Position numbers and translations under genes: made by a program. Below the pieces are notes generated by a model. It did no database searches and was not told where the DNA came from. It worked only from the letters and a program-made list of their open reading frames with translations. Positions 2,476 through 37,319 of a DNA stretch of 40,859 bases are shown here, in pieces; positions within the stretch are counted from its first letter, which is position 1; the number at the start of each line of letters is the position of its first letter. The DNA comes from Clostridiales bacterium (GTDB lineage: Bacteria > Bacillota > Clostridia > Oscillospirales > Feifaniaceae), in assembly GCA_012719075.1 (NCBI GenBank), contig JAAYBB010000012.1:1-40859 (forward strand). The letters are read 5' to 3'.

Positions 2476-3573
2476 CTAGGTCGACACCCCCTCAAAGGCG
2501 AGGCCCAGCTTTTTGGCCAGCCGCTCGGGCGAGTAGGCATAGCGCAGCGCGACCTCGCCCTCGACCAGACCGCGCTCGACCAGCCCGGCCAGGTAGTTGT
2601 CCATCGTGACGGTGCCCTCCTTGCCCGCGGTCTGCATCGCGCTCTCGAGCTGGTGCAGCTTGGACTCGCGGATCAGCGCGCGCACGGCGTTGTTCGCCAC
2701 CAGGATCTCAAAGGCGGGCACCCGCGCGCCGTCGACGGCCGGGATCAGCTGCTGGCAGACGATGCCCTGCAGGATGCCGGCCAGCTGCATGCGGACCTGG
2801 TTTTGCTGCTCGGGCGGAAAGGCGTCCAAAATGCGGTCGATGGTCTTGGCGGCGCCGGCCGTGTGCAGCGTGGAGATGACCAGGTGCCCGGTCTCGGCCG
2901 AGGTGATGGCGGTGCGGATGGTCTCGTGGTCGCGCATCTCGCCCAGCAGGATGACGTCGGGCGACTGGCGTAGGGCGGCCCGCAGCGCGCCGTTGTAGCT
3001 CTCGGTGTCGGTCGAGATCTCGCGCTGGGTCACCACGCTCTTATTGTGGCGGTGCAGGAACTCGATGGGGTCCTCGATCGTGATGATGTGGGCGGCGCGC
3101 GTGCGGTTGATCTCGTCGATGATGCAGGCCAGCGTGGTGGACTTGCCGCTTGCGGCCGGGCCGGTGACCAGCACGAGGCCGCGCCGCCGCTCCGAGAAGG
3201 CGATGACCTCGTCGGGGATGTGCAGCACGCTGCGCTCGGGCAGGCTGAAGGTGATGACGCGGACCACGGCGGCCAGCGAGCCCCGCTGCCGAAAGGCGCT
3301 CACGCGGAAGCGGGAGAGGGCGGGCAGCGAAAAGGAGAAGTCGTCGTCCCCCCGCCGCAGCAGGTTGTCCATCGGGCGGTTTTGCGCCAGGCCGTAGATT
3401 TCGGCAATCAGCGCCTCGGTCATGGCGGGGGTCAGCTTGACCTGGCCCTGCTGCTCGATCTCGCTGCTGATTTTGAAGGAGACCGGCAGCCCCGCGATGA
3501 TGAGGATGTCCGAGGCCTGGCGGCAGACGGCCTCCGCCAGCAGCTGCATGGGATTTTGGCTCAACTCGTCCAC
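2476..3573 (-). CDS. pilT: PilT-like type IV pilus / type II secretion ATPase
   Basis: Hexameric secretion ATPase of the PilT/GspE superfamily, which in type IV pilus systems drives retraction at the cytoplasmic membrane. The 365 residues match PilT length (about 350) and lack the long N-terminal domain of PilB/GspE. Walker A reads GPAASGKSTT (usual GPTGSGKST), followed by the Asp-box region ITIEDPIEFLH, Walker B-type VILLGEMRDHETIRTA, the His-box GHLVISTLHT, and the C-terminal EILVANNAVRALIRE typical of PilT. The start is GTG 3573 with GGAGG 6 bases before. It is the last gene of the operon reading from 6575. No elongation ATPase (PilB), PilM or prepilin peptidase is in the window, so whether this enzyme extends or retracts a fibre here cannot be told from the sequence. 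Confidence 0.92.
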   Translation of the reverse strand: MDELSQNPMQLLAEAVCRQASDILIIAGLPVSFKISSEIEQQGQVKLTPAMTEALIAEIYGLAQNRPMDNLLRRGDDDFSFSLPALSRFRVSAFRQRGSLAAVVRVITFSLPERSVLHIPDEVIAFSERRRGLVLVTGPAASGKSTTLACIIDEINRTRAAHIITIEDPIEFLHRHNKSVVTQREISTDTESYNGALRAALRQSPDVILLGEMRDHETIRTAITSAETGHLVISTLHTAGAAKTIDRILDAFPPEQQNQVRMQLAGILQGIVCQQLIPAVDGARVPAFEILVANNAVRALIRESKLHQLESAMQTAGKEGTVTMDNYLAGLVERGLVEGEVALRYAYSPERLAKKLGLAFEGVST

Positions 3574-3635
3574 GATACACCTCCAAAATTCTAAGGGGCG
3601 TCCGCCCCTGCAGGCGGCCGGCGCGCCGGGCCCGG

Positions 3636-4124
3636 TCAGCCCGGCCAGACCGGCAGGTGGTTGTCATAGACCTCGCCGGTGCCGTCGGTCTCCATGCGCC
3701 AGACCTGCGGTTCCACGCGCGGCTGTGCGCCGGGCGGGTACAGCAGCAGCTCCACCGAAAGGCGCTGGATGCCGCCGTCCCCGATGGGCAGCGAAAAGGC
3801 GACCCACACCGCGCCCTCCCGCAGCTCCAGCCGCCGGTCCTGCGCGCCCCCCGCCTCGAGCAGCTCCTCGAGGGCCGAGAGGGCGGGCGCCCGCTCGCCC
3901 TCCCAGCGGCGCTGCAGCTGGTCGGCCAGCAGGACCGCCTGGCCGTCGGCCGCGTAGTAGGCCTGGACCAGGTCGGCGTTTTTTTGGGAGAGCCGCCAGC
4001 CGGCCTGGGCCGACACGATCGAGAGCACCGAGAAGGCGGTCAGGCAGCAGACCAGCAGCGTGCAGAAGATCGAGAGGCTCCCGAACCCAAAGGGGGCCCT
4101 GCCGAACGGCTTGCGGCGGCTCAT
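3636..4124 (-). CDS. Small membrane-anchored pseudopilin-like protein (162 aa)
   Basis: Unassigned protein of the pilus-like operon. Residues about 14-38 form one hydrophobic segment (FGSLSIFCTLLVCCLTAFSV), followed by a charged region with coiled-coil character (LVQAYYAADGQAVLLADQLQ) and a beta-rich tail ending in a Pro/Trp-rich stretch. This plan, short basic N-terminus, one helix, then a globular domain, is that of minor pseudopilins, but there is no canonical G-F-T-L-x-E cleavage motif. The start ATG 4124 overlaps the stop of the upstream gene by 4 bases (ATGA), indicating translational coupling. Role inferred only from context and topology. Confidence 0.75.
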   Translation of the reverse strand: MSRRKPFGRAPFGFGSLSIFCTLLVCCLTAFSVLSIVSAQAGWRLSQKNADLVQAYYAADGQAVLLADQLQRRWEGERAPALSALEELLEAGGAQDRRLELREGAVWVAFSLPIGDGGIQRLSVELLLYPPGAQPRVEPQVWRMETDGTGEVYDNHLPVWPG

Positions 4125-4546
4125 GAGGCACCTCCAAAGGGGGCGGTGCGCGCCACCTCGAGCGTGAAGAGGGTCTCTTGCCCGTCGGTCACCCGGATCG
4201 AGGCGCGCGAAACCCCGCTGTCCGGGTCCCGGGACACCAGCAGGTCAAGCCGGTAGCGCGCCTCGTCTGCGGCCATCCAGGCGTCGTCGTAGCACACCGT
4301 GAGCTGTGCGCCCTCCAGTCGGCCGCCCAGCGCGCGGGACAGCTGCCCGAGGTCCTCGGCCGCCTTGAAGTGTTCGGCCGCGCTCTCGGCCGCAAAGACG
4401 GCGCCGGTGACCGCCTCGCTGTGGCGGGAGACCGTCACCGAGCGGGCCAGCAGGTTGGCGCAGACCGCCGCCGACAGGCAGAAGATCAGCGCCGAGAGCG
4501 TGAGCTCCAGCAGCATCAGCGAGGCGCCTGAAAGCCTGCGCTTCAC
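4121..4546 (-). CDS. Prepilin-like protein (141 aa)
   Basis: Small exported protein of the pilus-like operon and the most prepilin-like of the four. The N-terminus MKRRLSGASLMLLELTLSAL resembles a class III prepilin signal: basic leader, small residues, then a hydrophobic helix with a Glu near its start; however the residue before the presumed cut and the Glu spacing are not canonical. The helix is followed by AESAAEHFKAAEDLG and a beta-rich C-terminal half with a DGQETLFTLEVAR ending. Start is GTG 4546, overlapping the previous stop (GTGA). A minor pseudopilin role is an inference; it could equally be a non-processed assembly protein. Confidence 0.75.
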   Translation of the reverse strand: MKRRLSGASLMLLELTLSALIFCLSAAVCANLLARSVTVSRHSEAVTGAVFAAESAAEHFKAAEDLGQLSRALGGRLEGAQLTVCYDDAWMAADEARYRLDLLVSRDPDSGVSRASIRVTDGQETLFTLEVARTAPFGGAS

Positions 4547-5061
4547 GGGGCCTCGCCCCCCTCCGCACGGCAGCGCAGCCAGAGGGTCAGCGCGCCGGTG
4601 CCCGCCTGCCCGTAGTCCAGCGAAAACTGCAGCAGCCCCTCCTGCGACAGCGCGACCGAGAGGGCCTCGAGCGGCATCAGCACCGTGCCGCTCTCGGGCG
4701 GCAGCTCGACGCCCTCTTCAAAAAAGAGCTCGCGGAGCTGTCCGTTATAGACGTAGACATAGGTGTAGTAGCGGGTGTCGCTGCCCGCGAAGGTCTCGCG
4801 CAGGATCAGCGCGTCGGCGCCGCCAAAGCGCCCGGCCGAGACGGCGCCCTGCGCGTCGGCCTGGCGCACCCGGTTGGCCAGGTAGGAGAGGGCGCTGCGC
4901 TGCAGGTAGACCCGCTCCTCGGCGCCGTGGACGCGCTGATAGACCGAGAGGCCGGCGGTCAGCACGCCGACGGCCAGCAGCATGAACAGCGTGAACAGCA
5001 GCAGCACGGCGGCGGCCGAGACGCTCTCGCTCCGCCGGCCGGCGCCCGGCCGGCTGGGCAT
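4543..5061 (-). CDS. Membrane-anchored protein, DUF4860-like (172 aa)
   Basis: Single-pass membrane protein with a hydrophobic segment at about residues 15-42 (AAAVLLLFTLFMLLAVGVL) and an extracytoplasmic domain with SYLANRVRQADAQGAVS and a DALILRETF...YYTYVYVYNG pattern. From memory this resembles the DUF4860 family found beside type II secretion genes in Clostridia; that assignment should be tested with a profile search. Start ATG 5061 has GAGGGG 6-7 bases upstream. The stop overlaps the next gene's GTG by 4 bases. It probably forms part of the pilus or secretion complex. No catalytic motif is visible. Confidence 0.75.
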   Translation of the reverse strand: MPSRPGAGRRSESVSAAAVLLLFTLFMLLAVGVLTAGLSVYQRVHGAEERVYLQRSALSYLANRVRQADAQGAVSAGRFGGADALILRETFAGSDTRYYTYVYVYNGQLRELFFEEGVELPPESGTVLMPLEALSVALSQEGLLQFSLDYGQAGTGALTLWLRCRAEGGEAP

Positions 5062-5087
5062 GGGACCCCTCCTCTCGCGCGGCGCGG

Positions 5088-5444
5088 TCAGGCGCCCTTC
5101 TCGGGGGCCGCCGGTGGCGGGGCGCCCCGCTGCAGGATCGTGATGTCGGGCATCAGGTTGGAGGCGAAAATCTCGTAGTGGACCCGGTAGAGGTCCTCGT
5201 CGTAGCGCAGGCCGTAGTGCTCCTTGAGGTAGGCGACGCCGGGCGGGTAGCGCCCCTCGAGCGCATAGCACTGCAGCGCGGCCCGGCGCACGCTCTGTTC
5301 GACGACGCGCGCGCCCTCGCCGCCCACGGCGCCGCCCAGGCGGGGGGCGGCGAACAGCAGCAGCGCCGCGCAGAGCAGCAGCCCGAAGGCGCTCCTGAAG
5401 GGTGAGAGATCACACCTTGGTCGGGTCGGGAAAAGGGGACGCAT
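5088..5444 (-). CDS. Conserved small protein of clostridial pilus-like operons (118 aa)
   Basis: Second gene of the operon. A basic N-terminus, one hydrophobic helix (residues about 17-35, SAFGLLLCAALLLFAAPRLG), then a compact domain with the motif ALQCYALEGRYPP...YLKEHYGL and the tail IFASNLMPDITIL. The arrangement helix, then a CYALEG-Y-PP motif, is recurrent in pilus-like clusters of Clostridia, where it is normally left as hypothetical. It resembles the alpha-1 region plus small globular head of a pseudopilin, but lacks a prepilin cleavage motif. Start ATG 5444 with GGAGG 7-8 bases upstream; 24 bp after the pilC stop. Confidence 0.78.
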   Translation of the reverse strand: MRPLFPTRPRCDLSPFRSAFGLLLCAALLLFAAPRLGGAVGGEGARVVEQSVRRAALQCYALEGRYPPGVAYLKEHYGLRYDEDLYRVHYEIFASNLMPDITILQRGAPPPAAPEKGA

Positions 5445-5468
5445 GTGCGGGACCTCCTTTTGGGCCGG

Positions 5469-6575
5469 TCAGCCGACGGCGCTCAGCACGCCGATCAGCG
5501 GCAGCATGACCGAGAGCAGCACCAGCCCGATCACGCCCGAGAGCAGCGCCACCAGCACCGGCTCAATCAGGCCGATCCGGCGCTCCATGCGGTCGGTGGC
5601 CTCGTCAGACAGGCGGTCGGCGAGCTGCTGCAGCACCCGCTCAGCGCCGCCGGTCTGGAACCCACTGGACAGCAGCCCGGCGTCCAGGCCCGTAAAGAGC
5701 CCCACGTCCGCGCTGGCCCTCGGGAAGGGCTCGCCCGCCTCCATGCGGCACTGCAACGCTTCGAGCTGGCGGCGCACCGCGTCGCTCCGGACCAGCTCGC
5801 CGGCCCGGGCGACCGCCGCGCCCAGCTCAATGCCGCTGGCCAGCATCAGCGCGAGGCCCGAGGCGAAGTGGGCGCGGGAGAGGGCCTCCCCAAGCCGCCC
5901 GCGCGACGCGCGCCGGGCCATCAGGGCTGAAAAGCGGGCCCGGCCCCGCCGCGTGTAGAGCAGGTAGAAGCCGGCCAGCGCGGCGGCGGCCATCAGGCCG
6001 GCCAGCAGCGTGCCGGCCTGCTCGAGCGCGCGCCCGAGGCGCAGCAGCAGCGCGGCCAGCGGCGTCAGCGTGCTGCCCAGCTCGCGGTAAGCCCGCTCAA
6101 ACAGCGGCAGCACCTTGGCCAAAATGAGGAAGACGACGCCGGACAGCACCAGCGACATCATCGCGGGGTAAAAGAGGGTCTGCCGCAGGCCGGCCTGCAG
6201 GTCGGCCTCCCGCCGGTAGTGGGCGGCCAGCGCCTCCGACACCTGTTCCAGGCGACCCGAGAGCTCGCCGATCTGCACCATGTGGACGTAGTGCTCCGGA
6301 AAGTAGCCGGTCTCGGCCAGCGCCTCAAAGAGGGGGCGGCCCTCCCGGTCGACCTGTTCGGCCAGCCTCTCGAGCAGCGCGCGCTCCTGCGGTTCGGCCT
6401 CCGCGGCCATCAGCGAGAGGCCCTCCGAGAGCAGGATGCCGGCGCCCAGCGTCATCGCAAGGCGCAGCGCAAAGGCCGAGAGCGCCTCGGCCTCGAGCGG
6501 CTCCGCCGCACCGGACCGCCCCCGCACAGGGGGCTGCGCCAAGGACGCCTGTTCGGCATGTGCTCGGTTGCGCAT
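5469..6575 (-). CDS. pilC: PilC/GspF-family inner-membrane platform protein
   Basis: Polytopic membrane platform protein of type IV pilus and type II secretion machines, on which the ATPase acts. The 368 residues carry two T2SSF domains: the first around FALRLAMTLGAGILLSEGL...VQIGELSGRLEQVSEALA, the second around HFASGLALMLASGIELGAAV...LSSGFQTGGAERVLQQLA, each followed by hydrophobic segments, the last being EPVLVALLSGVIGLVLLSVM. This is slightly shorter than the usual 400. I chose ATG 6575 with GGAGG 6 bases upstream; an upstream in-frame extension is open but reads through the leader hairpin and has no ribosome site. It is first in the six-gene operon ending with pilT, behind a promoter at 6682-6710. 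Confidence 0.9.
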   Translation of the reverse strand: MRNRAHAEQASLAQPPVRGRSGAAEPLEAEALSAFALRLAMTLGAGILLSEGLSLMAAEAEPQERALLERLAEQVDREGRPLFEALAETGYFPEHYVHMVQIGELSGRLEQVSEALAAHYRREADLQAGLRQTLFYPAMMSLVLSGVVFLILAKVLPLFERAYRELGSTLTPLAALLLRLGRALEQAGTLLAGLMAAAALAGFYLLYTRRGRARFSALMARRASRGRLGEALSRAHFASGLALMLASGIELGAAVARAGELVRSDAVRRQLEALQCRMEAGEPFPRASADVGLFTGLDAGLLSSGFQTGGAERVLQQLADRLSDEATDRMERRIGLIEPVLVALLSGVIGLVLLSVMLPLIGVLSAVG

Positions 6576-6614
6576 GGGACACCTCCAGCGGTCTTTCGGT
6601 GGGGCGGGCGAATC

Positions 6615-6641
6615 GGCGCCTGCCAAACGGGCAAAGGCGCC
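6615..6641 (-). promoter_or_regulatory. Leader hairpin upstream of the pilus-like operon
   Basis: Inverted repeat GGCGCCT / AGGCGCC with an additional inner GCC/GGC pairing, inside the roughly 100-base leader of pilC; one arm also lies within the 14-base palindrome CAAAGGCGCCTTTG. There is no T-run. A regulatory role is possible but unproven. I checked for a GEMM (c-di-GMP) riboswitch and could not recognise its conserved core. Confidence 0.4.
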
Positions 6642-6681
6642 TTTGTCACAGAATGGGTAAAAGCTGGTCATATCTTCAATC

Positions 6682-6710
6682 ATTATAACGCCGAACAGGG
6701 GGCACGACAA
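6682..6710 (-). promoter_or_regulatory. Sigma-A-type promoter of the pilus-like operon
   Basis: On the minus strand TTGTCG, 17 bases, TATAAT, about 107 bases upstream of ATG 6575. The -10 is perfect, the -35 matches at four of six positions. Confidence 0.6.
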
Positions 6711-6960
6711 GGTGAATGGGCACTTTTTTGTCTTAAAATTAAAAACAATCGAGCATTTTGTCACAATTACACAAGCACCTGTTCACAGGCCGTGACGGCC
6801 GGCGGAAAGGGGATGGCTCGGCGGCCCCACAGGGGCAATCGGCGGGTGTCCGAGGGCAGCTGTCCCGGCGGAAATGGCCGGTGCCAAGGAGACAGATCAC
6901 GGGTCAGCAGGGCGGCGGCACCCGCATGCCGGGTCCCGGGGGCAGCAGTCTTTGGCCCCT

Positions 6961-29056: not shown

Positions 29057-29920
29057 CTAGGTCGTCTCCTGCGGCGGCGGGGCCTCGGGCTCTGGCTTCT
29101 TGCCGCGCGGCCCGCCCTCGCGCAGCACCTTGACCTCCTGCTTGGGCACCACCACGACCTGCTCGTCGTCCTGCAGGCGCACGGTCAGGTGGCCGCGCAG
29201 CAGGTTGACGTCGGTCACGATGCCGCGGCCGGACGCGGTCTGCACCAGTGTCCCGGGCCTCGGCGTGCTGCCCAGCAGCGCCTCGTAGGACTCCTGCTCG
29301 TACTTGAGGCAGCACATCAGGCGGCCGCAGGTGCCCGAGATCTTGGTGGGGTTGAGCGAGAGCCCCTGCTCCTTGGCCATCTTGATTGAGACCGGCTGGA
29401 ACTCGTTCAGGTGGGTGGAGCAGCAGAAGGGCCGCCCGCAGATGCCCAGGCCCCCCAGCATCTTGGCCTCGTCACGCACGCCGATCTGGCGCAGCTCGAT
29501 GCGGGTGCGGAAGACCGAGGCCAGGTCCTTGACCAGCTCGCGGAAGTCCACGCGCCCGTCGGCCTTGAAGTAGAACAGGATCTTGCTGCGGTCAAAGGTG
29601 TACTCCACGTCCACCAGCTTCATCTCGAGCTTGTGGGCCGCGATTTTCTGCAAGCAGATGTCAAAGGCCTCCTGCTCCCGCCGGACATTTTCGGCGGCCT
29701 GGCGGCTGTCCTCGGACGAGGCGAGGCGAAGGACCCGCTTGAGGGGCAGCGTCAGGCGCTCCTCGGGCATCTCGGTGTTGCCCATCACGACCTCGCCGTG
29801 CTCAATGCCGCGCGCGGTCTCCACAATCACGGCCTGTCCGGGCTGCAGCTCCAGCCCGGCCGGGTCGAAGTAGTAGACCTTGCCGGCCTCTCTGAAACGA
29901 ATTCCACAGATGGTTGTCAA
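29057..29920 (-). CDS. ricT: PSP1-domain regulator RicT (YaaT)
   Basis: Component of the RicA-RicF-RicT complex which in Bacillus carries 4Fe-4S clusters, guides RNase Y-dependent mRNA processing and affects sporulation and competence. The 287 residues contain the PSP1 domain (ELQPGQAVIVETARGIEHGE; RTRIELRQIGVRDEAKMLGG) with the Cys-rich motifs GICGRPFCCSTHL and GTCGRLMCCLKYE that supply cluster ligands. The C-terminal tail after VLREGG is Pro/Glu-rich and variable. Start is TTG 29920, 7 bases after GGGAGG; it overlaps the holB stop by 4 bases (TTGA). Placement after holB is as in Bacillus. Confidence 0.95.
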   Translation of the reverse strand: MTTICGIRFREAGKVYYFDPAGLELQPGQAVIVETARGIEHGEVVMGNTEMPEERLTLPLKRVLRLASSEDSRQAAENVRREQEAFDICLQKIAAHKLEMKLVDVEYTFDRSKILFYFKADGRVDFRELVKDLASVFRTRIELRQIGVRDEAKMLGGLGICGRPFCCSTHLNEFQPVSIKMAKEQGLSLNPTKISGTCGRLMCCLKYEQESYEALLGSTPRPGTLVQTASGRGIVTDVNLLRGHLTVRLQDDEQVVVVPKQEVKVLREGGPRGKKPEPEAPPPQETT

Positions 29921-30711
29921 TGTCGTGCCTCCCAACAGTCAATGAGCATGGCCGTGCAGAGCAGCGGCAGGTGGGCGTTGCCCTCCGCGGCGGCGCGGTA
30001 GCGCAGGGCGATTTTCGGCAGGGCCGTGGCCAACCGCGCTGTCCGGCCGGCGCCCTCGGCCAGCAGGTCGCGGCAGAGCGCGCAGAGCGCGTCGCAGTCG
30101 CTTTGAAAAGACGCCCTGTTGGCGCTCAGGTGTGGCTGGAGCGCCAGCAGGCCGTAGAGGTCTCCCGCCTGCAGGCGGGCGAGCAGGTCGGCGGCCGTCT
30201 GCGCCTGGCCGGGGGGCTCTTCGGCCCCCTCGAGCGCGTAGCGGGTCAGCCGGGAGCGCAGCGTGGGCAGCAGCAGGGCCGGGCGCTCGGCCTGCAGCAG
30301 CAGCGTCAGGTGGGGGGGCGGCTCCTCCAGCAGCGTGAGCAGCGCGTTTTGTGCCCCCGGGGTCATCGTGTCGGCCCCCTCGATCAGCGCGGCGCTGCGC
30401 GGGCCGAGCGGCTTCAGGCGGACCGCCTCCCGCAGCGCCCGCACCTGATCGACCTTGACCGAGCGCTCCCCCCGCACCGGCATGAAGTCGGGGTTGGCGC
30501 CGGCCTCGAAGGAGGTGCAGGCGCGGCAGTGCCCGCAGGGCAAAGCCCCGTCGGGCTGCGCGCAGAGCAGCGCCTTGGCGACCTGCCGGCCGGCCAAAAG
30601 CGCGGCCTTGGGCGGGCCGGTCAGCAGCACCGCATGCGGCAGCCGTCCGCGCTCGAGCGCAAGCGCGAGGGCCTGCGGCAGCGCGGCCGCCCGCCGGCTA
30701 GAACTTCTCAT
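29917..30711 (-). CDS. holB: DNA polymerase III delta' subunit (HolB-like)
   Basis: Clamp-loader subunit of the replicative polymerase, AAA+ fold, 264 residues. Residues about 10-60 hold a degenerate P-loop (LLTGPPKAALLAGRQ), as is usual for delta', followed by the zinc motif ALPCGHCRACTSFEAGANPD, then VKVDQVRALREAVRLKP, EGADTMTPGAQNALLTLLEE and PTLRSRLTRYAL, where the sensor-1-like S-R-C is S-R-L. It is shorter than Bacillus HolB (329). Start ATG 30711 overlaps the darA end by 14 bases; no strong ribosome site is seen, so coupled translation is likely. Confidence 0.9.
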   Translation of the reverse strand: MRSSSRRAAALPQALALALERGRLPHAVLLTGPPKAALLAGRQVAKALLCAQPDGALPCGHCRACTSFEAGANPDFMPVRGERSVKVDQVRALREAVRLKPLGPRSAALIEGADTMTPGAQNALLTLLEEPPPHLTLLLQAERPALLLPTLRSRLTRYALEGAEEPPGQAQTAADLLARLQAGDLYGLLALQPHLSANRASFQSDCDALCALCRDLLAEGAGRTARLATALPKIALRYRAAAEGNAHLPLLCTAMLIDCWEARH

Positions 30712-31021
30712 GGCGGTCGACGTCGAGCACAAAGACCACGGCGCCGCCCACCAGGACCTCGATCGGGAAGACGACCGGGACGGCGGCGTTCTCCATCGGC
30801 AGCGAGGAGATGAGCTGCTTGCGGCTCTTGCAGCAGTCCTTGATGATGCCCATGATGTCCTCGATTTGATCCTCCTGCGCGCCGATCAGAAAGGTGGTGT
30901 TGCCGTGCATGAGGAACACGCCGGTCGAGGAGAGGGCGGTGGCCTGGTATCCGGCCGTCAGCAGGGCGTCCTGCAGGGCCTTTCGGTCGTCGGAGTGGGT
31001 GATGGCAATCACGAGCTTCAT
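30698..31021 (-). CDS. darA: Cyclic-di-AMP receptor DarA (PstA)
   Basis: PII-like trimeric protein of the DUF970 family which binds cyclic di-AMP. The 107 residues match the family (about 109): MKLVIAITHSDDRKALQDAL, then GYQATALSSTGVFLMHGNTT, FLIGAQEDQIEDIMGIIKDC and CKSRKQLISSLP, ending with the strand VLVGGAVVFVLDVDRHEKF. These are the hallmarks of DarA. Start ATG 31021 follows GGAGG at 9 bases. In Bacillus yaaQ/darA lies between tmk and holB; here alr takes the place of tmk. It is 16 bp after alr and overlaps holB. Confidence 0.95.
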   Translation of the reverse strand: MKLVIAITHSDDRKALQDALLTAGYQATALSSTGVFLMHGNTTFLIGAQEDQIEDIMGIIKDCCKSRKQLISSLPMENAAVPVVFPIEVLVGGAVVFVLDVDRHEKF

Positions 31022-31037
31022 CGCATTCGACCTCCTT

Positions 31038-32177
31038 CTATGGCTGCGGCGCGACCCCTGTGGGGGCTGGCGCCGCGGGCTGTTCGGTCTCAATATAAAC
31101 CCTTTGCACCGCGCTGTCAATGAACATGGGGTTGACGGCAAAGCAGGCGAGGTCCCCCACCTCGACCGGCAGGCCGGTGACGTCGACCACCGTGCCCGAG
31201 GTGCCCACCCGCCCGATCGTGGGCACCCGGTGCCCGTTGATCGTGCAGCACAGCGCCTGCGGTCCCGCCAGGCCCTTGACCGCGTGCCAGAGGTAGCGCA
31301 GGCGGTCGAAGGGGCGGAAGGCGTCCTTGCCGTGGACGCGCAGCAGGCCGTCGGCCAGGCCGGCCGTCAGCACGGCGGCGGTCGTCGGCCGCCTGGTCCG
31401 ATAGACGTTGGTGTAGCCCACGTTGTGCCCCTTGGGCAGTTGGTGCAGCTCGGCCACCTCGCAGACAAAGCGGCCGACCGGCTGTAGTTTCAGATCGGTC
31501 GGCATGGGCAGCCGGCCGGCGAAGGCCGAGCCGATGCGCACGGCGTCCAGCCGCGTGTCGGGGTGGATCAGCGCGGCGCAGGAGTTGGCCAGGTGCCGCA
31601 TGGGGGGATCGACGCCGAGCGCCTTGAGGCGCCCGAGCATGGCCAGGAAGGCCGCGCACTGCTGCGCCGTGACCGGACCGGTCGAAAAGGACTGCGACAG
31701 GTGGGAGAACACCCCCTCCACGCGCAGGTGGGGGGCGTCGGCCAGCGCCTGCGCCGCCTGCGCCTCCTCGCCGGGCAAAAAGCCGAAGCGGCCAAAGCCG
31801 CAGTCCAGCTTGAGGTGCACCGGCAGCGTGGCGCCGGCCGCGGCGGCGGCGCGCTCGAGCGCCTGCGCCGAGGCGGCGCTGCCCACGGTTCCGATCAGGC
31901 CAAGGTGAAGGATCTGCTCGGCCTCGGCCGGCAGCGCGGTGGAGGACAGCAGCAGCATCGCACCGTCGAGACCGGCCTCGCGCAGCGCCTGCGCCTCCTC
32001 CAGCGTCGCGACGGCCAGCGTGGAGACGCCGCAGTCGAGCAGCGTGCGGGCCAGCGGCACCAGGCCGAGGCCGTAGCCGTTGGCCTTGCAAACCCCGATC
32101 ACCGGCACGCCGACCGCGCCGAGCACGGCGGCGATGTTCTTTCGCAGCGCGTCCATTTGGACCTCAAGTGCGCGCAA
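31038..32177 (-). CDS. alr: Alanine racemase family protein (divergent)
   Basis: PLP-dependent fold-type III racemase, in the family supplying D-alanine for peptidoglycan. 379 residues. The PLP lysine is in VIGVCKANGYGLGLVPLA (Lys31; usual VKANAYGHG), followed by LAVATLEEAQALREAG, HLKLDCGFGRFGF, VEGVFSHLSQSF, ANSCAALIHPD and VRIGSAFAGRLP. The second active-site Tyr may be in NVGYTNVYRTRRPT. The usual CMDQ-x-x-VDVT near the C-terminus is changed to RVGTSGTVVDVTGLP, so substrate preference may differ (a serine or broad-range racemase is possible). Start is TTG 32177 with GAGGA 11 bases upstream. The CRISPR remnant lies immediately upstream. Confidence 0.85.
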   Translation of the reverse strand: MRALEVQMDALRKNIAAVLGAVGVPVIGVCKANGYGLGLVPLARTLLDCGVSTLAVATLEEAQALREAGLDGAMLLLSSTALPAEAEQILHLGLIGTVGSAASAQALERAAAAAGATLPVHLKLDCGFGRFGFLPGEEAQAAQALADAPHLRVEGVFSHLSQSFSTGPVTAQQCAAFLAMLGRLKALGVDPPMRHLANSCAALIHPDTRLDAVRIGSAFAGRLPMPTDLKLQPVGRFVCEVAELHQLPKGHNVGYTNVYRTRRPTTAAVLTAGLADGLLRVHGKDAFRPFDRLRYLWHAVKGLAGPQALCCTINGHRVPTIGRVGTSGTVVDVTGLPVEVGDLACFAVNPMFIDSAVQRVYIETEQPAAPAPTGVAPQP

Positions 32178-32194
32178 GAGTCAACACATCCTCA

Positions 32195-32371
32195 ATTTCA
32201 ATCCACGCACCCCGCGTGGGGTGCGACACACTCATTGCGGCAGACATTCACATATCACTTTCAGTTTCAATCCACGCACCCCGCGTGGGGAGCGACTCTC
32301 CACGAACAGAATGCCGAGATACATCAGCATATTTCAATCCACGCTCCCCGTACCCCGCTTGGGGGGGCGAT
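32195..32371 (-). CRISPR. Degenerate type I-C-like CRISPR remnant (3 repeats, 2 spacers)
   Basis: Repeats at 32195-32227, 32264-32296 and a decayed one at 32331-32371. The plus-strand form starts with TTTCAATCCACGC, i.e. the minus-strand repeat ends in GCGTGGATTGAAA, the type I-C signature, around a CACCCCGCG/CGTGGGGTG stem. Repeats 1 and 2 differ at two positions (first base; GGGGT to GGGGA); repeat 3 has substitutions and an insertion of about 8 bases. Spacers are 36 and 34 bases. No cas genes and no clear leader are in the window. It sits between femX-like and alr, starting 18 bp before the alr start. Confidence 0.8.
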
Positions 32372-32402: not shown

Positions 32403-33473
32403 CTACTCGCCCCTGCCGCGGTTCTTCATGCGGTAGAGGGCGGTGGCGCCCCGGTTGTAGACCTTGCGCAGCAGGTCCACGGCCCGGGCGGCCCCCGGCT
32501 TGAAGCAGTACTCGAATTCGCCGCAGAACTCGACCAGCTCGCCGCCAAAGCCCTTTTTGAAGCGGTAGAGGCCGTAGAGCGGGTTGTCCTCCGACAGGTC
32601 GCCCGAGACGCCCCGGAAGTCGTAGATCCGGCAGCCCTGCTGCACCGCCCAGCGGATCATCTCCCACTGCAGCAGGTAGTTGGGCATGACGTTGCGGTCG
32701 CGGTTGGAGGAGGCGCCGTAGAGGTACCAGACCTTGTCGCCGAAGTGGATGGCCAGCGTCCCGGCGATGGGCCTGTCCTCATAAAAGGCCATGTACAGCC
32801 GCAGGTGCTCCCCCATGCCCTCCACCATGCGCTCAAAGTAGGCGAGCGGGCGGGTGACAAAGCGGTCCCGCATGCCGGTCTCGACCATGAGCTCGTGGAA
32901 GGCCGGCAGGTATTCGCGCCCCACCACCCGCACGGTCACGCCCTTGCGGGCGGCCAGGCGGATGTTGTAGCGCCACTTCTCGTGGAAGCCGGCCATCAGC
33001 TCCTCCTCGGTCCGGCCGGCCACCGGCAGGCGGAAGACGTAGCGCGGCTGAATGCCCTCAAAGTTTTTGCCCTCGGCGTGCAGCGTAAAGCCCATCGACC
33101 GCATGCGGTCGACAAAGGCGGTCTGGTCGCTGGTGACGTCGGGGTCCAGCTTGAGCGAAAAGCCGCGGCGCTGTCTGGCCAGGGCCTTGGCCCCCTCCAT
33201 GAGGGCCGAGAGGGTCTCGGCATCGTCGATGTCGCAGACCGGGCCGCGCGGCGAATAGAGCATGCGGTAGGGCATGCCGGGCATGCGGCGGATCAGGATG
33301 GCCATCGACCCGCGCAGCGCGCCGCCCTCGTCCCTGGCCAGAAGGACCTCAAAGTCCCACTCGTTTTTGACCTTCGACCAGATCGCGCTCTGGCAAAAAT
33401 GGCCCTTGGGATGGGCCATGATAAACGCCTCGTATTCCTGCATTCCGGCAGGTGTGAGCAGCTCTGTCCGCAA
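32403..33473 (-). CDS. FemAB-family peptidyltransferase (FemX-like)
   Basis: Aminoacyl-tRNA-dependent peptidyltransferase family that adds amino acids to the peptidoglycan stem (FemX/FmhB, MurM), 356 residues. Two GNAT-like halves are visible: MAHPKGHFCQSAIWSKVKNE near the N-terminus, then GSMAILIRRMPGMPYRMLYS, PRGPVCDIDD, and EKWRYNIRLAARKGV, the Y-N-I-R-x-A-x-K-x-G-V block typical of the family; the C-terminal half has LYMAFYEDRPIAGTLAI, WYLYGASSNRDRNVMPNYLL and GCRIYDFRGVSGD. Start is TTG 33473 with GGGGGTG upstream. A promoter is at 33503-33532. It runs leftward towards the CRISPR remnant. Confidence 0.92.
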   Translation of the reverse strand: MRTELLTPAGMQEYEAFIMAHPKGHFCQSAIWSKVKNEWDFEVLLARDEGGALRGSMAILIRRMPGMPYRMLYSPRGPVCDIDDAETLSALMEGAKALARQRRGFSLKLDPDVTSDQTAFVDRMRSMGFTLHAEGKNFEGIQPRYVFRLPVAGRTEEELMAGFHEKWRYNIRLAARKGVTVRVVGREYLPAFHELMVETGMRDRFVTRPLAYFERMVEGMGEHLRLYMAFYEDRPIAGTLAIHFGDKVWYLYGASSNRDRNVMPNYLLQWEMIRWAVQQGCRIYDFRGVSGDLSEDNPLYGLYRFKKGFGGELVEFCGEFEYCFKPGAARAVDLLRKVYNRGATALYRMKNRGRGE

Positions 33474-33588: not shown

Positions 33589-33683
33589 GAATAGGCCAAG
33601 GCGACCGCTGCCCCGGGCGGGAGAGACCGCCCGCAGGGTGCGGCGGGGACGCCGATCTGAAGGGACGGAAAGGGGAGGGTCAC

Positions 33684-34187
33684 GTGCAGCCGGAGAAATC
33701 CGGGACCGGCAGGTCCGGGCGGCGGCCGCAGCTGCGAAGGCGGCGCGGCGTAAAGCCCCGGGTGCTGGCCAAGGCGGCGCTGCTGGTCTTTGTGCTCATT
33801 TTGCTGTCGGCGCTGACCCTGCTGCTGGTCGCCGTCTTCCGCCGGCCCGAGCTGATCGAGCGGCGCAAAAACAACTCGGGCCTGCTGGTGGAGAGCGGCG
33901 AGGCGCAGCTGCTCGAGAGCCTGACCAAGCCGGCCCTGGTGCCCGAGCGGGCGGCCCTCATCCGGCTGGACGGCATTTTGGTGCTGCAGTCGGGGGAGCA
34001 CTACGCCACCTTCACGGTGGACGGCATCACGGCCACCATGGTCCGCTACGACTACGTCGGGGAGTACCAGCTGACCGACATCAACGCCTCGGGCGTCGAG
34101 CTGACCCGGGGGGATGAGGTGGTCGCCCTCACGCTGAGCGGCAGCAACAAGCTGGACGTCGTCGGTGGAGGGGGTGCGGGCGCATGA
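33684..34187 (+). CDS. Single-pass membrane protein with PilP/GspC-like domain (167 aa)
   Basis: Basic N-terminus (residues 1-27, many Arg), one membrane helix (AALLVFVLILLSALTLLLVA), then an extracytoplasmic beta domain: PERAALIRLDGILVLQSGEH, YATFTVDGITATMVRYDYVG, EYQLTDINASGVELTRGDEV and VALTLSG. The order of strands (L-x-G-I-L, A-x-F-x-V-D-G, Y-x-V-G, V-x-L-x-x-G-D-x-x-x-x-L) is that of the GspC HR / PilP domain, which binds the N0 domain of secretins. This is by eye, not by profile. Start GTG 33684 has GGGGAGGG 4 bases upstream. It overlaps the secretin-N-like gene by 4 bases (ATGA), fitting a partner role. Confidence 0.75.
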   Translation: MQPEKSGTGRSGRRPQLRRRRGVKPRVLAKAALLVFVLILLSALTLLLVAVFRRPELIERRKNNSGLLVESGEAQLLESLTKPALVPERAALIRLDGILVLQSGEHYATFTVDGITATMVRYDYVGEYQLTDINASGVELTRGDEVVALTLSGSNKLDVVGGGGAGA

Positions 34188-35500
34188 TCAAAACCTGGAC
34201 GGGGCGCCTGCTGCCCGCGCTGCTGCTCTGCCTGCTTGCGCTCTGTGCGCTGGCGGCCGAGGAGCCCTTCGAGGGGCAGGACTACCCGAGCCTTGCGCCG
34301 CCGGCCGCCGCCGGCCTGGTGCAGCGCAACGCCTACACGCCCACGCCCGAGGAGCGGGGCATTTACGCCGAGGACCTGGCCGGCCGCGTGGCCTATGTGT
34401 CGGAGGCGGTCATCAAGCTGATGCCCGAGACCGAGGAGCTGATCTCGCTCGACTACCGCAACGTCGACCTGCGGGAGCTGGTGGCCCGCCTGTCCAAGCT
34501 GGCCGGGCGCCATGCGCTCTTTTTTGGCGAGCCCGTCAAGGTGACGGTCAAGGCCAACGTCGTGACCCCCATGCGGGCGCTGGACGAGGCGCTCAGAGCG
34601 GCCGAGGGCATGAAGTACCTCGTGGACGAGGACGTGATCTTGGTCGGGCCCGAGGAGATGCTGACCAGCACCTTCGTCTACACCGACGTCGCGACCACCA
34701 AGCCGCTGCGCTACCTGTCGGCCGAGATGCTCGAGCGGCTGTGCGAGACCATGGAGCTCCGCTACACCTCGCTGGAGCCGGCCCCGGACGGGGTGCGCCT
34801 CGTGGCCATGCCCCACGACCTGGCCCACATCCTGATGGTGATCGAGAGCCTGGACGTGGCCGACGGCTTTGTCAACCTGGACACCAAGCCCGAGCTGATT
34901 TTAGAGCGGCTGGAGCTGCGCTACATCACCGGCAAGCAGTTTGTCAACCTGGCCGAGCGCTTCGGCATCCGCTCGGGCATCTGCTGCGACCACACCGATG
35001 CGCGGGAGGTCTACCTCTCGGGCAACAGTAAGACCATCGCGGACCTGCGGCACATCGCCGAGGTCTTTGACGTGGCGCTCAACGAGAAGCTGACGGCCAA
35101 GGGCAGCACCATCATCGCACAGCCCTACCGCTTTTCAGTCGCAGAGCCCGAGGCGGTGGCCCAGGCGGTCGCAGACTGCGGCATCTCCTTTCGCATCCTC
35201 TGCATGAGCGACGGGCGCAAGGTCGTCTACGCCGTCGGCAACGCCGTCGAGACGCGGCAGGCCGTCAAGCTCATGTCCAAGCTGGACCGGGAGGACGCGG
35301 TGCTGGTGGTGCTCGGCGGGGCGGGGTCCACCAAGACGCTGACCACGCTGCGGGACAAGATCGTCAAGGAGACCAGCCTCAAGGTGGCGGCCTTCACGGT
35401 CACCGAAAACCTCGGGGCGTCTGGAGACTACTACTACCTCTACTGTGTCGCGCCGCAAAAGCAGGCGGAGGAGGTCCTGCCCTACCGCATGGAGGGGTGA
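34184..35500 (+). CDS. Exported protein with repeated secretin N-domain-like modules (438 aa)
   Basis: After a signal peptide (MIKTWTGRLLPALLLCLLAL ... ALAA) comes a linker, then an STN/N0-like module at residues about 85-160 (ISLDYRNVDLRELVARLSKL, VTVKANVVTPMRALDEAL, LVDEDVILVGPEE), repeated in diverged form at about 170-240 (TKPLRYLSAEMLERLCETME, VRLVAMPHDLAHILMVIESL) and 245-320 (LERLELRYITGKQFVNLAER, IADLRHIAEVFDVA). The tail (AVLVVLGGAGSTKTLTTL; ASGDYYYLYCVAPQKQA) does not look like the secretin beta-barrel domain. It could be a PilQ-like periplasm-type platform working without an outer membrane. Start ATG 34184 with GGAGGGGG upstream. Confidence 0.75.
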   Translation: MIKTWTGRLLPALLLCLLALCALAAEEPFEGQDYPSLAPPAAAGLVQRNAYTPTPEERGIYAEDLAGRVAYVSEAVIKLMPETEELISLDYRNVDLRELVARLSKLAGRHALFFGEPVKVTVKANVVTPMRALDEALRAAEGMKYLVDEDVILVGPEEMLTSTFVYTDVATTKPLRYLSAEMLERLCETMELRYTSLEPAPDGVRLVAMPHDLAHILMVIESLDVADGFVNLDTKPELILERLELRYITGKQFVNLAERFGIRSGICCDHTDAREVYLSGNSKTIADLRHIAEVFDVALNEKLTAKGSTIIAQPYRFSVAEPEAVAQAVADCGISFRILCMSDGRKVVYAVGNAVETRQAVKLMSKLDREDAVLVVLGGAGSTKTLTTLRDKIVKETSLKVAAFTVTENLGASGDYYYLYCVAPQKQAEEVLPYRMEG

Positions 35501-35538
35501 GGCCCGCTGTGCGGCACGGGATCAATCGGCAGTGCACT

Positions 35539-35571
35539 GTGGCGCGGGAATGGCTCCCGCGCCACATTTTT
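35539..35571 (+). terminator. Strong terminator after the secretin-N-like gene
   Basis: GTGGCGCGGGA and TCCCGCGCCAC pair perfectly (11 bases, 5-base loop), followed by ATTTTTAT. Confidence 0.85.
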
Positions 35572-35603
35572 ATCGGCGAAGGGGTCCAAAACGCGGGCGG
35601 CTG

Positions 35604-35612
35604 TGGTATACT
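35604..35612 (+). promoter_or_regulatory. Extended -10 element of the VanX-CapA gene
   Basis: TGGTATACT, with no good -35 at the proper distance; 28 bases before ATG 35640. The gene thus has its own promoter after the terminator. Confidence 0.5.
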
Positions 35613-35639
35613 GCAACTAAATCGGCAGGGGGTGAGCGC

Positions 35640-37319
35640 ATGGAGGGCAGGTGGGTCGGGCAGGCCGGCGGGCGCGGCCTTCGGCAGGCGCTGGTTGGCC
35701 TGCTGCTGGGGCTGCTGCTGTCCATGTCGGCGCTGCTGCGCCTGGACACCCGCGAGCTGCCGGCCATGCTCTACCTGGACCCCGAGCCCCCAACTCAAAC
35801 GGACCACAGCCAGACAGGAGAGGAGGCGGCAGCCTTGCAGGAGAACCTGCCCCGCCCCGCGGAGCCGGACGACGGGGACTTTGTCAGCATCAAGCGCCAC
35901 ATTCCCGACATCCTGGTCGACCTCAAGTACGCCACGCAGGACAACATCTCGGGGCAGGTGATCTACGACTTCGACTGGGCGCCGCTGCGCTACGGCACGG
36001 TCAAAAAGCTCATGGCGGCGCAGGCGGCGCTGCGCGAGCAGGGCTACGGTCTGCTGGTCTGGGACGCCTTTCGGCCGCCGGCCGCCCAGTTTGTGCTGTG
36101 GGAGGCCTTTCCCGACCCGCGCTATGTGGCCGACCCCCACCGCAAGTTCTCCAATCACTCGAGGGGCAACTGCGTCGACGTGACGCTGGTGAAGGCGCAG
36201 GGGGAGCCGGTGGAGATGCCCACCGAATTTGACGACTTTTCGCCGCGCGCCGGGCGAACGTACGAGGAGCTTGCGCCCGAGGTGGCCGCGCACGCCCGCC
36301 TGCTCGAGGAGGCGATGCTGCAGGCCGGCTTTGTCCCCTACGAGGCCGAGTGGTGGCACTACACCGACGCGGTGGACTACCCGCCCGAGCAGCAGTTTTC
36401 GCCGGCCGAGGCGCTGCTGCCCATCCGCGTGCACGCGGTGGGCGACTGCGTGCTGGCCAAGGGGCACAACTACGCCTTTGAGGGCAGCTTTGAGGACTAC
36501 GTGCAGCGCGCAAACGGGGACCTCTCGTACTTTTTCAAACACGTTGCCGACCGCTTCACGGCCGACGACCTGACCATCGCAAACGGTGAGAACGTCTTTA
36601 CCACGGCCACGCAGCGGGCCGACAAGCGCCACCAGGGCGACCGGGCCTTCTGGTTTAAGGGCGACCCCGCCTACGCCGACATCTATCGGCTGGGCGGCGT
36701 CGAGGCGGTCAACCTGGCCAACAACCACAGTTACGACTACCTCGAGCAGGGGTATCAGGACACCCTCGCGGCGCTGCGGGCGGCCGGCGTTGCGCCCTTT
36801 GGCGACGACCTCACGGCCACCGTGGACTGCAGGGGCCGCCGCGTGGCGCTGCTGGGCTTCAACGCGCTGGGGCGGCTGGAGGAGGGGGTCGACCCCGCCC
36901 TGCTGCGGCAGCAGGTGGGCGAGGCGGTCGCCAGGGCGGCCGGCGAGGCCGAGCTGGTCATCGTCTCCTTCCACTGGGGGGAGGAGTACGCGCGGCAGCC
37001 AAACGCGCAGCAGACCGAGCTGGGGCGGCTGGCCATTGACAGCGGCGCCCACCTCGTGCTGGGGCACCACCCCCACGTGCTGCAGCCGGTCGAGACTTAC
37101 AATGGCCGGCCCATCGCCTATTCGCTGGGCAACTTTGTCTACGGCGGCGCCTTCCGGCCGCCGAAGGAGACGGCCGTGCTGCAGACCACCTTCTACCTGG
37201 ACGCCGCCACCGGCGAGCTCGACCACGTGCAGTATGTGCTGATCCCCTGTGAGACCTACGGGGACACCGAGCGCAACAACTACCAGCCCATCCTGTGCCC
37301 AGTGCCGGGGCAGGGCTGA
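35640..37319 (+). CDS. VanX-type D,D-dipeptidase fused to a CapA-like domain
   Basis: Two-domain extracytoplasmic protein, 559 residues. An N-terminal anchor (QALVGLLLGLLLSMSALL) is followed at about 80-250 by an M15D (VanX/DdpX) D-alanyl-D-alanine dipeptidase domain: LVDLKYATQDNISGQVIY, LLVWDAFRPPAAQFVLW, the zinc site SNHSRGNCVDVTL and the catalytic Glu and third ligand in AEWWHYTD, all intact. From about 265 a CapA-type metallophosphoesterase-like domain follows: HAVGDCVLAKGHNYAFEGSF, ANGENVFTTATQ, AVNLANNHSYDYLEQGYQDT, VSFHWGEEY, LGHHPHVLQPVE and AYSLGNFVYGG. Start ATG 35640 after GGGGGTGA. Fusion suggests one enzyme with two activities on peptidoglycan or wall polymer. Confidence 0.92.
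   Translation: MEGRWVGQAGGRGLRQALVGLLLGLLLSMSALLRLDTRELPAMLYLDPEPPTQTDHSQTGEEAAALQENLPRPAEPDDGDFVSIKRHIPDILVDLKYATQDNISGQVIYDFDWAPLRYGTVKKLMAAQAALREQGYGLLVWDAFRPPAAQFVLWEAFPDPRYVADPHRKFSNHSRGNCVDVTLVKAQGEPVEMPTEFDDFSPRAGRTYEELAPEVAAHARLLEEAMLQAGFVPYEAEWWHYTDAVDYPPEQQFSPAEALLPIRVHAVGDCVLAKGHNYAFEGSFEDYVQRANGDLSYFFKHVADRFTADDLTIANGENVFTTATQRADKRHQGDRAFWFKGDPAYADIYRLGGVEAVNLANNHSYDYLEQGYQDTLAALRAAGVAPFGDDLTATVDCRGRRVALLGFNALGRLEEGVDPALLRQQVGEAVARAAGEAELVIVSFHWGEEYARQPNAQQTELGRLAIDSGAHLVLGHHPHVLQPVETYNGRPIAYSLGNFVYGGAFRPPKETAVLQTTFYLDAATGELDHVQYVLIPCETYGDTERNNYQPILCPVPGQG

Follow-up and report, generated by a model that had tools for sequence, protein, structure and literature searches.

A barrel-less PilP–PilQ pair in monoderm Clostridia, probably a membrane-to-wall collar

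An overlapping gene pair in a Feifaniaceae contig

The window, a stretch of 40,859 nucleotides covering positions 1 to 40,859 of contig JAAYBB010000012.1 from a Clostridiales bacterium of the Feifaniaceae (assembly GCA_012719075.1), carries two overlapping genes on its forward strand, here termed A (33684–34187) and B (34184–35500). Both open reading frames stand as the initial annotation had drawn them, and the stop codon of A overlaps the start codon of B in an ATGA (34184–34187). Gene A begins with GTG, immediately preceded by a strong ribosome-binding-site-like sequence, AAGGGGAGGG (33670–33679, forward strand), and the ATGA overlap suggests that A and B are translationally coupled. Specifically, A encodes a 167-residue PilP/GspC-HR-like protein, assigned from the reading frame, profiles, model and Foldseek, with a single transmembrane helix at residues 26–52 (33759–33839; seen in the model, in hydropathy and in the sequence) that lacks a lipobox cysteine, and with a six-stranded β domain of the PilP/HR type at residues 93–150 (33960–34133; model and Foldseek).

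Gene B encodes a 438-residue exported, barrel-less PilQ-type protein, as judged from profiles, model and Foldseek. A signal peptide or N-terminal hydrophobic segment (residues 1–25, 34184–34258; hydropathy and model) is followed by an N0 (STN-like) domain (residues 87–156, 34442–34651; profiles, model and Foldseek) and by an N1-like (Secretin_N) ring-building unit (residues 169–229, 34688–34870; model, with PF03958 in relatives). The model predicts a second (residues 239–305, 34898–35098) and a third (residues 311–367, 35114–35284) ring-building-like unit, and a C-terminal unit (residues 373–434, 35300–35485; model and alignment with relatives) occupies the position that the barrel takes in a secretin.

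On the reverse strand, a divergent FemAB-family gene (32403–33473), an alanine racemase gene (31038–32177) and PSP1-like and holB-like genes (29057–30732), the last two named by eye, adjoin the pair, and this neighbourhood is conserved by synteny in all six members of the window's family that carry the pair. The alanine racemase gene is separated from the FemAB gene by three CRISPR-type repeats (ATTTCAATCCACGC..., spacing 69 and 67; 32192–32350); the open reading frames called there are spurious, being the repeat translated, and in relatives the two genes are adjacent with no such insert. Directly downstream of B, a single open reading frame (35445–37319) combines D-Ala-D-Ala dipeptidase (M15) and PGA_cap domains, and was not seen at the matching place in relatives' loci. 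Additionally, the same contig holds, 27 kb from B and on the reverse strand, a pilus-like operon (2476–6764) with genes for PilC (5469–6764), pilin-like proteins with DUF4860 and PilT (2476–3573).

B is PilQ cut down to its N-domains and A is a PilP homologue

Queried singly, window A and B give no significant Pfam or NCBIfam match, and window B as a single query found nothing in a scan of named genomes. The resemblance was therefore tested through relatives, which for B were collected by family, order, class and phylum searches and from the named genomes, the latter by means of the family alignment; LysM-only matches from an order-wide profile search that included LysM were left out of the counts. 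Among PDB sequences, the family profile of B finds PilQ N0/N1 (4ar0, 4av2, 6ve2) and GspD N1–N3 with E about 1e-10, PilQ N0 being the top match of the all-member profile (E 2.6e-10). A profile built from the window's family only also has PilQ as its top seven PDB matches (best E 0.0013), and its alignment with the pilus-linked relatives spans 343 columns. In addition, Secretin_N (PF03958) is detected at E ≤ 0.1 in 19 of the 20 aligned B members, with a best E of 6e-20.

Window B was modelled by AlphaFold2 with a mean pLDDT of 72.8 and values mostly of 80–93 across N0 and N1; the model contains five α/β units from residue 87 onwards, namely N0 and four more extending to residue 434. Structure alignments comprised the window proteins and the loci of the named-genome scan, with the closest homologues left out. 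Nearly all best Foldseek matches of the B model are secretin N-domains (XcpQ, GspD, InvG and PilQ; E from 1.5e-7), while whole-chain TM-scores are low, as is expected if the domains pack at different angles. The STN/N0-type pattern that the initial annotation had noticed in the 438-residue protein is upheld, with PilQ/GspD profile matches, AlphaFold2 and Foldseek in agreement.

The secretin barrel (PF00263) is found in none of the 20 aligned B members, nor in seven further relatives scanned. The same genome search recovered full secretins with PF00263 from other lineages of the phylum (loci L160, L165 and L171), so the missing barrel in B is not a search blind spot. At the place of the barrel the model has a small α/β unit, which aligns with the C-terminus of the pilus-linked relatives; that the tail does not resemble a secretin barrel, as first remarked from the sequence, is borne out. 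B is PilQ cut down to its N-domains.

For A, the family profile has PilP (2e-5) and GspC-HR (8e-5) as its best PDB matches. The profile of the window's family alone retrieves no PilP among PDB sequences, and when compared with the pilus-linked A proteins it gives an hhalign probability of 97. The AlphaFold2 model of window A consists of the helix and the six-stranded domain, the latter with pLDDT of about 90 or more. PilP takes three of the top five Foldseek places of this model, and GspC (of the GspC–GspD complex) and LspC take the other two; these matches rank first with individually weak E values of 0.02–0.3, and 3oss_C, with a TMt of 0.80, belongs to the best of them. The A member shown does not reach the Pfam cut-off for PilP. 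The DPF motif, typical of PilP, is present in pilus-linked A relatives and is lacking in window A, whose transmembrane helix contains no cysteine and hence offers no PilP-type lipoprotein anchor. One A protein (L098, 10053–10481), the only one seen with a lipoprotein-type signal, has a lipobox-like ISGC as classical PilP does, and the B next to it is only 255 residues long. For the window's family, the identity of A is read from its relatives, its predicted structure and its position before B. Taken together, A is a PilP homologue, and the model and the family profile support the earlier description of a neighbour with one membrane helix and a GspC/PilP-like β domain; profile searches and structure prediction of both proteins match N0/STN and PilP/HR domains.

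In 27 genomes, comprising those with the pair and two relatives from the window's family, neither Omp85 nor a secretin barrel (PF00263) over cut-off was found, with both searches positive in diderm controls; weak PF00263 matches in four genomes were rejected as transporter-permease-like reading frames with a chance motif. PilP and PilQ are normally diderm proteins, and a cryptic diderm with a split outer-membrane secretin, of which B would form the N-terminal part, would account for their presence; because the 27 genomes gave no Omp85 and no barrel over cut-off, we reject this explanation, the least credible of those considered. The window's genome has SpoIVA (E 2e-120), the protein occurs in 16 of 20 genomes, and most genomes are, by their gene content, spore-former genotypes. 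The monoderm sporeformer presumed at the outset fits these results.

This background raises the possibility that the pair was recruited into a sporulation channel, by analogy with the SpoIIIAG/SpoIIQ rings, since SpoIIIAG uses ring-building domains. However, SpoIIIAG and other SpoIII proteins are absent among the PDB sequence matches of B and among its top 50 structural matches, where secretin N-domains rank first; no sporulation gene is recognised beside the pair, and one genome that has the pair (G005) gives no SpoIVA match. A sporulation role is accordingly improbable.

Genomic context outside and within the window's family

Outside the window's family, all 33 neighbourhoods examined have PilT, PilC, PilB or PilM within 3.9 kb of B. 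In five of these loci the order is pilM-pilN-pilO-A-B, which equals the diderm pilMNOPQ order and places A between pilO and B, and other loci are arranged as pilD-A-B-pilT-pilC-(sigma factor)-pilM-pilN-pilO-pilB-pilins. In the operon of locus L121, pilD, pilM, pilN, pilO, pilB and the pilins are identified by Pfam and PilC by phmmer, and the isolate Pygmaiobacter massiliensis (L135) has A-B-pilT-pilC-pilM-pilO-pilB. The gene between pilC and pilM in L121 (13800–14498) encodes a sigma-70-family factor, which also occurs in L087, L089, L126, L139, L177, L180 and L182. In L123 (9977–11404), a stop or frameshift splits B into two reading frames within an otherwise intact-looking pilus operon. The record of one locus among the 33, L139, carries the label Sumerlaeota, which is doubtful because the same protein occurs in L146, from a genome that belongs to the phylum of the window.

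Two lineages have A and B fused in a single open reading frame (L092, 13390–14982; L100, 2–940; L136, 3472–5091; L150, 952–2577). The fused protein has one membrane helix, at its N-terminus, by which B can be held at the cytoplasmic membrane. The peptidoglycan-binding LysM domain is found in 8 of the 20 B members, window B not among them. The LysM protein TsaP anchors the PilQ ring to peptidoglycan; LysM is associated with PilQ-type proteins here as well, but in several relatives of B the LysM is fused to the N-domains and belongs to the PilQ-like protein itself. In a tree of the N0–N1 region, the barrel-less group separates from the secretins of the same phylum with support of 100/100, and within it the six members of the window's family that have the pair form a clade (100/99).

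The pair shares with PilP–PilQ of type IVa pili (pilMNOPQ; Neisseria, Pseudomonas and Vibrio) the order of N0 followed by Secretin_N, the PilP-type β domain and, in the relatives, the pilus operon context. Unlike PilQ, B has no barrel, belongs to cells with no sign of an outer membrane and carries a distinct C-terminal unit instead; unlike PilP, A generally has a membrane helix in place of a lipoprotein-type signal; and the pair of the window's family, in contrast to type IVa PilP–PilQ, stands outside a pilus operon. The membrane helix and the HR-type domain, which in GspC faces the N0 of the secretin, are common to A and to GspC of the GspC–GspD pair in type II secretion, and GspD/XcpQ N0–N2 are the best structural matches of B, whereas the A-B operons carry PilT, PilM, PilN and PilO, and B is barrel-less.

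Two loci of the set belong to Desulforudis and Desulfovirgula metagenome-assembled genomes, genera that are related to Desulfotomaculum and Pelotomaculum. The accessible parts of an earlier paper describe PilQ homologues in some Gram-positive pil operons, those of D. reducens and P. thermopropionicum, and raise transfer from Gram-negatives as their origin (Imam et al. 2011, PMC3244431). Like B, these are PilQ-like genes in monoderm pilus operons; unlike the present pair, they are presented in those parts with mention of neither a PilP partner nor the absence of the barrel (PMC3244431). A later review states that PilP and the secretin are absent in monoderms (Pelicic 2019, PMC6916266); the secretin is likewise treated as absent there in a survey of the filament superfamily (Denise et al. 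2019, PMC6668835). According to Antunes et al. (2016, PMC5007114), it is unclear how type IV pili pass through the thick monoderm wall. Among the open-access papers and the parts of them that were available, which set the scope of this comparison, no description of a barrel-less PilP–PilQ pair was found.

The window's family departs from the pilus linkage seen in the other loci. The initial annotation had proposed a collar for the pilus-like machine encoded at 2.5–6.6 kb; the pilus link holds in every locus examined outside the family, but the window pair lies 27 kb from that operon, next to the FemAB and alanine racemase genes. The initial annotation had named presence in genomes without any PilC/PilT homologue as a refutation, and such presence is observed within the family: four of its six genomes with the pair (G002, G004, G005 and G007) have no T2SSF (PilC) match and no T2SSE (PilB/PilT) match over cut-off, a call that covers PilC and PilB/PilT in draft genomes that are 75–97% complete, three of them of one genus, so that missing pilus genes could partly reflect incompleteness. 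Weak T2SSE matches in these four were rejected, being below cut-off and confined to short stretches of the P-loop region. Conversely, G001 and G003 have PilC and lack B. A prepilin peptidase (PF01478) was recognised in G006 only and in none of G000–G005 and G007; as this includes the window's genome, which has pilins, absence calls in these drafts need care.

Within the family, LysM and the operon link have been lost, and the barrel is missing from the whole group, which could be taken to mean that the pair is a decaying, functionless relic of a diderm ancestor. The reading frames are nevertheless intact and mostly overlapping in six genomes, and a comparison of G002 with G005, two genomes in which pilus motors are not recognisable, gives dN/dS values of 0.05 (B) and 0.07 (A), with 0.04 for FemAB. 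The values for the pair indicate strong purifying selection and that it is kept there as functional protein; they contradict a functionless relic, which we reject as very improbable.

On the other hand, the pair of the window organism could have changed no more than its chromosomal place and still act as the PilP/PilQ-type collar of the organism's own type IV pilus, with either the PilMN/PilO operon on contig C11 or the PilC/PilT operon at 2.5–6.6 kb as partner. The former, a second pilus operon (L102, 2154–3707), comprises a PilM–PilN fusion, a PilO-like gene and several pilin genes, and does not include A-B. The genome as a whole holds PilC twice, PilT, the PilM–PilN fusion, a PilO-like protein and pilins, so a pilus may still make use of the window copy. 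Elsewhere the pair is as a rule linked to pili, and no second copy of B was found in the genome, the other profile match spanning the LysM part only. Against this stand the four relatives that keep the pair with no recognisable PilC or PilB/PilT, the two that keep PilC without B, and conserved neighbours that are cell-wall and housekeeping genes. We regard a merely relocated pilus collar as possible and rather unlikely. At the level of the protein family the link to pili is correct, and a pilus collar is the best reading; for the window copy the link is unproven and probably not exclusive, and a pilus-independent role at the wall is at least as likely.

A proposed membrane-to-wall collar

Taking sequence, models and gene context together, we propose, as the likely course of events, that the pair descends from PilP and PilQ of type IVa pili, has lost the barrel, forms a pilus collar in most Clostridia that have it, and has taken on an envelope role in the window's family. 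Specifically, A and B would derive from PilP and PilQ of the type IVa pilus machine, and the loss of the outer-membrane barrel would have left PilQ as a stack of N0 and ring-building domains. A would be anchored in the cytoplasmic membrane, and its β domain may dock on the N0 domain of B in the manner of GspC-HR on GspD N0, a contact to which the A-B fusions lend indirect support, and oligomers of B could form a ring or sleeve at the interface between membrane and wall; in relatives carrying LysM, this domain would tie B to peptidoglycan. In most Clostridia with the pair, the assembly may act as a collar of the pilus operon, keeping the pilus machine in line with the wall and guiding the pilus. 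In the window's family, where the pair has left the pilus operon, it may serve an envelope role that is at least partly independent of pili. The pair is, in short, probably a membrane-to-wall collar.

A bolder version, in which the PilP and PilQ N-domains have been kept across Clostridia as the wall collar of the pilus and one family has turned them into a stand-alone membrane–wall scaffold free of pili, is tentative, and we place it slightly below an even chance. If true, the scaffold in the window's family would be a secretin-derived ring in cells that use it without a pilus and have no outer membrane.

A conserved, barrel-less PilP–PilQ pair in pilus operons, one of which comes from the isolate Pygmaiobacter massiliensis, is a concrete candidate for the part, missing until now, with which monoderm pili cross the wall, and it can be deleted and imaged. 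It also means that bacteria lacking an outer membrane retain the membrane-side half of the outer-membrane gateway of the pilus, and the pair looks as though Clostridia had inherited it from a diderm ancestor. The window's family, in turn, would provide an example of what this PilP–PilQ part can become away from the pilus.
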